The position numbers and the translations under genes were made by a program. The notes beneath the pieces are model-generated. The model worked only from the letters and a program-made list of their open reading frames with translations, was not told where the DNA came from and did no database searches. A DNA stretch of 62,918 nt from a candidate division KSB1 bacterium (lineage in GTDB: Bacteria > Zhuqueibacterota > JdFR-76 > DREG01), in the NCBI GenBank assembly GCA_022566355.1, contig JADFJB010000008.1:1-62918 (forward strand), written 5' to 3'. Positions 18,807 to 22,720 of this stretch are shown here, piece by piece (position 1 is the first letter of the stretch; each line of letters begins with the position of its first letter).

Positions 18807-20168
18807 TTATTTATCTAATTTAAATATTACAGGAATTCTCACCCTGACTTTAACAGGTCTACCCTCTTTAGCAGCTGGTTGCCATTTCACTTTTTTTATT
18901 GCTTCCGCAGCCGCTTCATCACAGCCATTATCTCCAAGTGAATTCAAAATTTTTGTATCAACCACAGCACCGCTTTCATCAATTAATGCTTGAACTACAA
19001 CTGTTCCTTCTATTCCTGCTCTTCTGGCAATTTCAGGATAATGCAGATTTTGTTGAATAGCTTGGAAACCACCAATGGGTGCCGGAGCTTGGTCGAATTT
19101 CTGAAATTCCTCAGAATTTATTTCCTTTTTTAATACAGCCTCATTTTCCACTAATGGTTGCTGAATCTCTGAGCATCTCACATTCAACATTGAAATACCA
19201 AAGGCTAAACAAACAAAAAGGCCAATGAGCATCTTTTCAGTTAAATTCAGTTTCATCATAATTTTCTCCTTTTGATTGATTAAATATTGAAATCTTTGAA
19301 TAAGGATTTTGTTTGTTTGATGGAAGTAATTAACAGCATGAGAAAACATGCCAGATCTAGATGATTGATCGATAAAAGATATCAAAAGCTTACTGTAAGT
19401 CAGAGCAGTATTTTGGGAATTGGCTAGTACAAAATCATCACAAGTTCTCTCGCGAAATTTATTGATTTGACGATTGGTTATCCAAATAACAGGATGAAAG
19501 AAAAAAACAATCTGAGCTAGATGTTGAATTAACCCAACTAAAGAATCTTTTCGCTGTATGTGTGCGAGTTCATGTAGTAAAATGGCTTCCAACTGATCGT
19601 TCTGCCAAAACATCGCACTGCCTGGCAGATAGATTTTGGGCCGAAAAATTCCGGCTGTAAATGGAATGGGTATAGTTCGATTTAACATTAATTGGATTTT
19701 ATTTTTTTCGAATTGTTTTTTCAGGTTTGCAGGGATGTATTTTCGATAGAATCTTGTGGAGTCTCCAAGTTTAATATAAAATTTTACATTTTTGAAAACC
19801 AGGTAAATGAGAAGGCCAATTGCCACTAAAACCCAGAAAATAAACAAACAACTTTGAAGCGATAACTGAGTATCTTCAACACTGGCATCCAACGCTGTAA
19901 GTGTCAAAACAGGGTAAACTATTTCAGGAATCCACTGAGTTTGATTATTAAATGGAAAATTAATTGAAGGAGGCAGCATTATTTTTAGTAAAACCAATGA
20001 CCATAAGCAAAGCAAAAAAATGGCAGATCGATTATGAAAGAAAAAAGACAAAATCGCAATTAGCATTGCAAAAACTGTCAATTGGAAAGAGGCATTTAAC
20101 AGAAACTCCAACCAAACCCCTGAAATCTCATTGATCCACATGATTGCTTCTGTATAATTCTTAAACAT
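18807..20168 (-). CDS. BlaR1/MecR1-like M56 peptidase fused to a TonB C-terminal domain
   Basis: A 453-residue membrane protein. The first part has TM helices and an M56 (BlaR1) zinc protease domain with HELAH at about 199-203. A further TM near 305-325 is followed by a periplasmic TonB C-terminal domain at about 365-450 (YPEIARRAGIEGTVVVQAL). The penicillin-sensing domain of true BlaR1 is absent. BlaR1-type proteases cleave BlaI repressors, and the BlaI gene lies just upstream. The TonB domain closely resembles that of the adjacent TonB gene, which suggests duplication. It is likely a stress-sensing or nutrient-linked regulator rather than a beta-lactam sensor. Confidence 0.85.
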   Translation of the reverse strand: MFKNYTEAIMWINEISGVWLEFLLNASFQLTVFAMLIAILSFFFHNRSAIFLLCLWSLVLLKIMLPPSINFPFNNQTQWIPEIVYPVLTLTALDASVEDTQLSLQSCLFIFWVLVAIGLLIYLVFKNVKFYIKLGDSTRFYRKYIPANLKKQFEKNKIQLMLNRTIPIPFTAGIFRPKIYLPGSAMFWQNDQLEAILLHELAHIQRKDSLVGLIQHLAQIVFFFHPVIWITNRQINKFRERTCDDFVLANSQNTALTYSKLLISFIDQSSRSGMFSHAVNYFHQTNKILIQRFQYLINQKEKIMMKLNLTEKMLIGLFVCLAFGISMLNVRCSEIQQPLVENEAVLKKEINSEEFQKFDQAPAPIGGFQAIQQNLHYPEIARRAGIEGTVVVQALIDESGAVVDTKILNSLGDNGCDEAAAEAIKKVKWQPAAKEGRPVKVRVRIPVIFKLDK

Positions 20169-20225
20169 AGAGTAGTCCCTAAAGAGTATTAGTCACTTCT
20201 TTATATTTATTTTGAAATAGCCAAT

Positions 20226-20345
20226 TTATAAAATAGAATCTTTTTTGATTGGATCTTGGGCGAAGAGGTTATTGGAATTTGTCCAAAATTGAACCAGTGT
20301 TATCATTAAAATGAAGCTAAATAAACTATTAAGAAATACAAACAC
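20226..20345 (-). CDS. 39-codon predicted exported peptide in the BlaI operon
   Basis: This small ORF lies between the BlaI and M56-TonB genes. GTG at 20345 is preceded by TAGGAGG (overlapping the BlaI stop) with a 5-nt spacing, the best SD in the area. The peptide starts with a hydrophobic stretch (SLFSFILMITLVQF) and has a possible signal-peptidase site at LFA-QD, leaving only about ten residues. It could be a membrane peptide, a leader or a signal. I recognise no family. Translation is inferred from the SD and position. Confidence 0.5.
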   Translation of the reverse strand: MFVFLNSLFSFILMITLVQFWTNSNNLFAQDPIKKDSIL

Positions 20346-20354
20346 AGTTACCTC

Positions 20355-20735
20355 CTATTGCTGAGACTCTCGCTTTTTTATCAATTCTTTAATTTGATCA
20401 ATATCCTCTTTTGATAGATTTCTGGAATCCACTAAGTATTGAGCCAGCAAGCCGAATGATCCGTTAAAAGCGCGACTCACAAAACTTTCTGTAGCCTGTT
20501 TTATAGCTTTGGTCTCCGAAAGACTGGGTTTATAAAAATTAACCAATCCAATTTTTTCTTTTTTGAGAACCTTCTTTTGGACCAGACGATCCATGTACGT
20601 TTGGATTGTTGTGTAGGCCTTCTCTTTGTTCGGATAACCTTCCTGCCAGACTTCTTTTACCGTAGCTGTTTTTCTCTTCCATATGATTTTCAATATTTGC
20701 CACTCAGTTTCTGAAAAAAGTTTAGTCTTTTTCAT
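20355..20735 (-). CDS. BlaI/MecI/CopY-family repressor
   Basis: A 126-residue winged-helix repressor. The N-terminal segment ETEWQILKIIWKRKTATVKE and the tyrosine/threonine-rich TTIQTYMDRLVQKK are typical of BlaI, and the helical C-terminus provides dimerisation and the protease-sensitive site. It is first in an operon with the small exported ORF and the M56-TonB protease gene. A perfect ACTAC-type palindrome lies over its promoter, so it should repress its own operon until the protease cleaves it. SD GTAGGAGC precedes the ATG. Confidence 0.92.
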   Translation of the reverse strand: MKKTKLFSETEWQILKIIWKRKTATVKEVWQEGYPNKEKAYTTIQTYMDRLVQKKVLKKEKIGLVNFYKPSLSETKAIKQATESFVSRAFNGSFGLLAQYLVDSRNLSKEDIDQIKELIKKRESQQ

Positions 20736-20761: not shown

Positions 20762-20804
20762 ACTACTACTGTAGTAGTATATAATAAAAAATATCCAATG
20801 TCAA
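20762..20804 (-). promoter_or_regulatory. BlaI operon promoter with overlapping operator
   Basis: Minus-strand TTGACA (20804-20799), a 17-bp spacer and TATACT (20781-20776) form a near-consensus promoter. ACTACTAC-T-GTAGTAGT (20762-20778) is a perfect 17-bp palindrome of the BlaI/MecI TACNNTGTA class that overlaps the -10 box, so binding would block transcription. Confidence 0.85.
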
Positions 20805-20844: not shown

Positions 20845-21498
20845 TCAGAAACGTTTCACTAATCGAAATTTGAAAGGGATCGTCACCCAATCTTGAACGG
20901 GTTTTAAACTTCGAATTGCCGGTTTCCATTTTACCTTTTTCATGGCAGTCAAGGCTGCTTCGTCACAACCCCCAAATCCCAATGATTCCAGAAATTTCCA
21001 TTTGACAACTTTACCCTCTTCACTAATCAATGCTTTAATTACAACTTGTCCTTCAATTCCTGCACGACGAGCATAATCGGGATATTTCAAATATCTTTTA
21101 ATTGCGGCTAACCCGCCGATCGGTTCCGGATCAGAATCATATTTTTTGAGTGCCGGTTTAGTAATTGTTGGGGGGGTGGGTGGTTCCGGATATTCTTCAT
21201 CAAATAATAACTCGGTTTCCTCAATGGTTAAATCATCGGGAATTTCAGGATCATCGGATGGTATTGGTACCTTTGGTCTAACGGGCGGCGCCTGACGTAT
21301 ATCTATTTTTGTGATGGGTATTTCTTCTACGATTATTGATTCTATCTTATTCTCACTTGGATTATTTTCTTTATCAAATTTTTTAAACGCCTGGAAAGAC
21401 ACAATTATGATGATTAGAGTTAATACCAAAGATTTTTTTATTAATTGAAAATAATTCATTTTAAAACTTGAATTTTTATTAAAACTTGGACTCATCAT
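20845..21498 (-). CDS. TonB-family energy transducer
   Basis: A 217-residue TonB-like protein. One TM helix (about 22-40, LVLTLIIIIVSF), a Pro/Glu-rich periplasmic spacer (about 70-115) and a TonB C-terminal domain (about 125-215, YPDYARRAGIEGQVVIKAL). It should transmit proton-motive force to outer-membrane receptors, though no ExbBD genes are adjacent. Its C-terminal domain is closely related to that of the nearby M56-TonB fusion. It lies upstream of the BlaI promoter and may be transcribed separately. Confidence 0.88.
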   Translation of the reverse strand: MMSPSFNKNSSFKMNYFQLIKKSLVLTLIIIIVSFQAFKKFDKENNPSENKIESIIVEEIPITKIDIRQAPPVRPKVPIPSDDPEIPDDLTIEETELLFDEEYPEPPTPPTITKPALKKYDSDPEPIGGLAAIKRYLKYPDYARRAGIEGQVVIKALISEEGKVVKWKFLESLGFGGCDEAALTAMKKVKWKPAIRSLKPVQDWVTIPFKFRLVKRF

Positions 21499-21967: not shown

Positions 21968-22720
21968 ATGAAATTAATTTCCTGGAATGTTAATGGAATC
22001 CGGGCTGTGATTAAATACGGTTTCTTGGAGTTTTTATCAAATCACGATCCGGATATCATTTGCCTTCAGGAAACTAGGGCTGATTCAGATCAAATTGAAT
22101 TAAACCTGCTCCAATACCATCAATATTGGAATCCTGCTGAAAAAAAGGGCTATTCCGGTACGGTAATATTTACAAAGATTAAACCAATCCAAGTCAATAA
22201 CGGAATCGGAATAAAAAAACATGATCAAGAAGGAAGGGTTATCACATTAGAATTCCAGGATTATTTTTTAATCACTGTTTACACACCAAATGCGCAACGA
22301 AAACTACTGCGACTAGGTTATCGTACAAAGGAATGGGATGTTGATTTTTAAGCCTATCTAAAAAAACTAGAAAGGGAAAAACCCGTTATCTTTTGCGGTG
22401 ATCTTAATGTCGCTCATAAAGAAATTGATTTAGAAAATCCGAAGACCAATAAAAACAATGCGGGATTTACAAAAGAAGAAAGGACCGGTTTCGAGAATTT
22501 GATCAATGCAGAATTTATTGACACATTCCGAGAATTTGAAAAAAAGGGCGGGCATTATACCTGGTGGAGTAATTTTAGTAACGCACGCCAGAGGAATATA
22601 GGCTGGCGCATTGATTATTTCTGTATATCATCATTGCTACGCAACCGCCTAATAAAATCATACATTCTTCCTCAAGTGATGGGATCGGACCATTGTCCGA
22701 TTGTAATGGTTTTAGAATAA
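21968..22720 (+). pseudogene. xth: Exonuclease III gene with one in-frame stop
   Basis: Read through, the frame encodes 250 residues of an ExoIII/AP endonuclease that repairs abasic sites, a normal length. Catalytic motifs are intact: [34 protein letters not shown] and GSDHCP. Codon 128 (22349-22351) is TAA, splitting the protein between the [10 protein letters not shown] and AYLKKLE segments. No other lesion is visible, so this is either a very recent mutation or a sequencing error. Each half alone lacks part of the active site. Confidence 0.88.

Follow-up and report, generated by a model that had tools for sequence, protein, structure and literature searches.

A short signal-peptide-like frame, possibly a lineage-specific orphan, in an unusually long BlaI-M56 spacer of a candidate division KSB1 bacterium

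We analysed a 62,918-nt stretch of DNA from a candidate division KSB1 bacterium (contig JADFJB010000008.1; the whole stretch is termed the window). On the minus strand of the window, a gene for a BlaI/MecI-type repressor (20355..20735; PF03965, E 3.6e-28, 98.7 bits vs a cut-off of 22.6) is followed by a gene for an M56 (BlaR1-type) peptidase (18807..20168; PF05569, E 1.3e-35), the core of which spans residues 22-296 and contains HELAH. The initial annotation had read this place as a BlaI operon with an M56 protease, and the two profile matches bear this out. The pair shares with BlaI-BlaR1 and MecI-MecR1 pairs a PF03965 repressor adjoining an HExxH M56 membrane peptidase, and has a candidate operator dyad at the promoter. 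In contrast to those pairs, the M56 protein ends in a TonB_C domain (residues 374-451) in the position that the beta-lactam sensor takes in BlaR1, and a 39-codon frame parts the two genes; no C-terminal penicillin-binding sensor domain was matched in Pfam. The blaR1_generic model matched residues 94-327 of M56 only, with 75.7 bits vs a cut-off of 400. On present evidence, this is an ordinary BlaI/M56-TonB operon that carries an orphan frame.

A separate TonB_C protein is encoded directly upstream of BlaI (20845..21498, minus strand). The TonB_C regions of this protein and of M56 share 54% identity, which suggests a duplication or shared partners. The nearest named records for the M56 TonB domain belong to candidate division KSB1 MAGs (67-68% identity). 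A search of wider genome contigs with the M56 query gave three loci, all by TonB-domain match, and the viral contigs gave no match. Further along the window, an exonuclease III-like frame (21968..22720, plus strand) contains one in-frame TAA (22349-22351) with Exo_endo_phos matched on both sides; it is either a pseudogene or the result of a sequence error.

Upstream of BlaI lies a perfect dyad, ACTACTAC-N-GTAGTAGT (8+1+8, 17 nt; 20762..20778), which is the presumed BlaI operator. In the genome, the 13-nt core TACTACNGTAGTA is unique to this place, against 3 occurrences of the reversed control pattern. The dyad overlaps the -10 element of the best of 13 promoter-like sites in the stretch, TTGACA-17-TATACT (20776..20804, minus strand; 11/12), the overall number of such sites being about that found in shuffles (13 vs 10.7 on average). 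ACTAC/GTAGT- or CTAC/GTAG-type dyads were present upstream of BlaI at 6 of 29 other loci (L031, L032, L033, L034, L036, and L037); by the pattern used, none was found at the closest locus, L004. Two other operator candidates were rejected: TACTACNNTGTAGTA had 7 window matches with up to three mismatches vs 8.85 expected, none of them at the BlaI promoter, and ACTACANNTGTAGT had one place in the genome, inside a frame read as a glycosyltransferase, and was taken as a chance match. As in other BlaI/M56 systems, BlaI probably represses its own promoter via the dyad, and M56, signalled via its TonB_C end, probably cleaves BlaI. Signalling in BlaR1 systems leads to removal of BlaI by the protease (PMC7593790); by analogy with the family, the same removal may take place in the window operon.

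The spacer between the BlaI stop and the M56 start (20169..20354, minus strand; 186 nt, 28% GC) holds a 39-codon frame with a GTG start (20345..20226, minus strand). The predicted product, MFVFLNSLFSFILMITLVQFWTNSNNLFAQDPIKKDSIL (39 aa), consists of a hydrophobic core (residues 2-18), an NNLFAQ stretch, and the tail DPIKKDSIL. An AGGAGG Shine-Dalgarno (SD)-like motif (20351..20356, minus strand) overlaps the BlaI stop, with 5 nt to the GTG; the minus strand across the junction reads CAG CAA TAG GAGG TAACT GTG, and the AG of the BlaI TAG is part of the motif. The initial annotation had placed a GTG-started frame at 20226-20345 between repressor and protease, with TAGGAGG at 5 nt overlapping the BlaI stop. 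Coordinates and frame were confirmed on the minus strand, the AGGAGG was found as described, and BlaI lies upstream and M56 downstream on the same strand.

All three frames, namely BlaI (20735..20355), the short frame, and M56 (20168..18807), are in the same phase; the upstream in-frame stop of the short frame is the TAG of BlaI. With no further stop between them after this TAG, readthrough of the BlaI stop codon could yield a small share of membrane-anchored BlaI. However, a shared phase is one chance in three, none of 30 BlaI ends (last 12 residues of each) was hydrophobic, BlaI ends about where the BlaI proteins of relatives end, and no hint of TAG recoding was noticed. Readthrough is scarcely credible on these grounds.

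The product had been described as a signal sequence with a short tail, and this description stands in part. The core has a 17-residue hydropathy of 2.35 and is followed by LFA-Q; by a simple rule, the peptide thus has the core and the signal-peptidase site of a Sec signal peptide. The basic n-region is absent, as no K/R precedes the core. Among N-termini in the window, [A/S/G]-Q follows the core in 9 of 21 that are hydrophobic, and K/R precedes it in all 9 that are comparable. The short frame therefore resembles signal peptides found on exported proteins of this genome in its hydrophobic core followed by A-Q, but differs from them in lacking K/R before the core and in having ~10 residues after the A-Q motif. 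The lack of K/R would fit either a truncated remnant or a young frame. At two other window positions, 16888 and 18497, AGGAGG precedes frames with signal-peptide-like starts (a 134-aa frame and the DUF1028 protein).

The search for BlaI in 82 genomes of the phylum returned a list of 93 places, with 51 of the genomes matched at E 1e-10 or better. Seventy of these places were examined (the remaining 23 had E 1.1e-17 to 3.6e-11), and 63 had a downstream HExxH frame, the criterion being HExxH rather than an M56 profile match at every place. The other seven had either no downstream frame >100 codons in the DNA examined (L038, L077, and L088) or a frame without HExxH (L069, L079, L097, and L100). 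By the first possible start codon, the HExxH frame starts within 35 nt of the BlaI stop at 58 of the 63 junctions and overlaps the stop at 36. The five larger gaps are those of the window (186 nt), L035 (91 nt), L041 (107 nt), L039 (197 nt), and L084 (341 nt, a masked-base artefact). In near relatives G001, G062, G066, and G006 the gaps are -4, 1, 4, and -4 nt; ordered by BlaI identity (63, 60, and 56%), near relatives show -4, 1, and 4 nt, the genes of the closest (63%) overlapping by 4 nt. The second BlaI-M56 pair of the same genome (L080) has an 8-nt overlap. Three coupled operons of the phylum (L004, L031, and L036) have the same gene order and BlaI proteins 63%, 60%, and 49% identical to that of the window, and the M56 core is 42% identical to that of L004 (123/295 aligned residues); these operons differ in having neither spacer nor short frame (gaps of -4, 1, and 1 nt).

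No SD-led hydrophobic short frame was found at the other 62 BlaI-HExxH junctions; the window alone has one. Conservation of the frame in related operons had been suggested as a check on its function, and its absence from relatives as evidence against it. Absence is what we observed, in a sample where the genus is represented by the window's own genome. Because the sample includes a single genome from the genus and three from the family (one of the three without a BlaI match), the short frame could be conserved within the wider genus. In two species of genus g17 (L038 and L039), ~200 nt separate BlaI from M56 and include an open frame whose end falls at the M56 ATG. This frame was rejected as a counterpart: it is not kept in L041 of the same genus, and a scan found no SD before it in L039. 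The titles and abstract openings of the literature retrieved report no such frame.

A peptide search of the 82 genomes gave a match at E 10 or better in 26, own genome included. None was convincing; the best outside the own genome had E 0.04 and three internal stops. Nothing in Pfam matched the peptide, and one NCBIfam match was far under its cut-off (E 0.16). Several observations are consistent with the frame being a remnant of a larger exported-protein gene, i.e., a signal-peptide fragment cut at both ends and left after insertion and deletion. NNLFAQD resembles the signal-peptide ends of long window proteins (NDNFAQDGDA, TLAQDVP), an n-region without K/R is expected if the 5′ end was lost, and the usual BlaI-M56 junction has no such spacer. 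Of 14 phylum matches read out, three appear on visual inspection to fall near the N-terminus of long frames (L019, NNSNLLFAQY; L026, TNSDVFAQDDIKT; and L028), but these matches are weak (E 0.08, 0.37, and 0.68). In addition, the own genome yielded no related gene or DNA copy: the next peptide match had E 0.42, the DNA search with the spacer recovered, apart from the query, only short stretches (15 matches, 16-41 nt, best E 0.009), and AQD-x-IKKD, searched as a degenerate pattern, matched the window place only. A remnant also requires loss at both ends plus a fitting SD. We regard such an origin as possible but doubtful.

The initial annotation had further suggested that the exported peptide may be sensed or cleaved by the M56 protease. 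The same-strand position in a spacer within the operon, the well-placed AGGAGG, and the export-signal-like sequence would suit this role, and the TonB_C domain of M56 is a candidate sensor. However, the frame is missing at the other 62 junctions, including L015, where the M56 frame enters a TonB_C-like stretch by eye; moreover, no convincing homologue was found in the 82 genomes, and K/R is lacking ahead of the core. As a conserved sensing partner of M56 the peptide was thus not upheld, and a functional role of this kind is quite unlikely. What points to a link with M56 sensing is the position of the frame and its export-like sequence, with no support beyond these, and we saw no sign that the peptide takes part. 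A more elaborate version, in which a newly born lineage-specific exported decapeptide (QDPIKKDSIL) is co-produced with BlaI and read by M56-TonB_C as a peptide-gated BlaI switch, is very improbable.

An SD core of at least 5 nt around the BlaI 3′ end (last 25 nt plus 3) was present at 9 of 30 loci, window included. In L031, L036, and L057, AGGAGG at the BlaI end precedes the M56 start with suitable spacing, and M56 initiation is therefore another possible source of an SD at this place. Because AGGAGG precedes the M56 start in these three loci, the window SD may be an old M56 signal that now faces the spacer. The short frame might then be a chance frame, with an SD left over from a displaced M56 start and no meaningful product. 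Against this, the SD core is missing at 21 of the 30 loci. AGGAGG alone proves little and is suggestive only, since it occurs in 22 copies on both strands of the window, 6 of which are followed, after 4-11 nt, by a start codon that opens a frame of at least 20 codons. By a simple scan, 27 of 47 window genes of at least 100 aa have no SD core.

For estimates of chance expectation, 60,000 spacers of 186 nt were simulated under each of two models (spacer and intergenic), with the window's GTG start kept fixed. A frame open for at least 39 codons occurred in 3107 (spacer model) and 3289 (intergenic model) of the 60,000, i.e., in ~5%, which is consistent with a chance frame. Frames that were also as hydrophobic as the peptide numbered 88 and 51, respectively. 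Length, hydropathy, and [A/S/G]-Q after the core together left 7 and 4 (~1 in 10,000), which argues against chance, although the simulated fractions overstate significance because these criteria were picked after the peptide was known. The RNA fold of the region is ordinary (z -0.80; 42 of 200 shuffles equally or more stable), as would be expected of a chance frame. The codon-usage log-odds of the short frame is -0.10 per codon, and just 2 of 47 gene starts have a lower value; the values span -0.24 to 0.16 in hydrophobic N-termini of real genes and -0.39 to 0.22 in 64 intergenic open stretches. Codon usage thus fails to tell the short frame from intergenic open stretches. A meaningless chance frame appears unlikely.

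We favour, with a probability of about 0.45, the view that the short frame is an orphan specific to this lineage, in a BlaI-M56 spacer of unusual length. The genes on either side of this spacer adjoin or overlap one another in almost every relative examined, and the frame starts behind an SD-like sequence at the BlaI 3′ end, a place that some relatives seem to use for M56 initiation. Ribosomes ending BlaI could initiate at the GTG. Any product would be a short peptide, inserted in the membrane or exported, and perhaps trimmed to QDPIKKDSIL. Against this orphan reading stand the thin sampling of the genus, within which the frame could be conserved, and a signal-peptide likeness that exceeds that of the simulations and that a purely accidental frame would not explain. 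Most probably, the short frame is a recent addition and not a functional component of the sensor. On the evidence of one genome, the best reading is a lineage-specific orphan or remnant, with translation possible. The findings also call for caution in the annotation of such junctions, as a strong SD at the BlaI end can belong to M56, as appears to be the case in some relatives. Should it be translated, the frame would illustrate how a short export signal can arise between two genes that normally abut, and would be a candidate accessory of the BlaI/M56 system.
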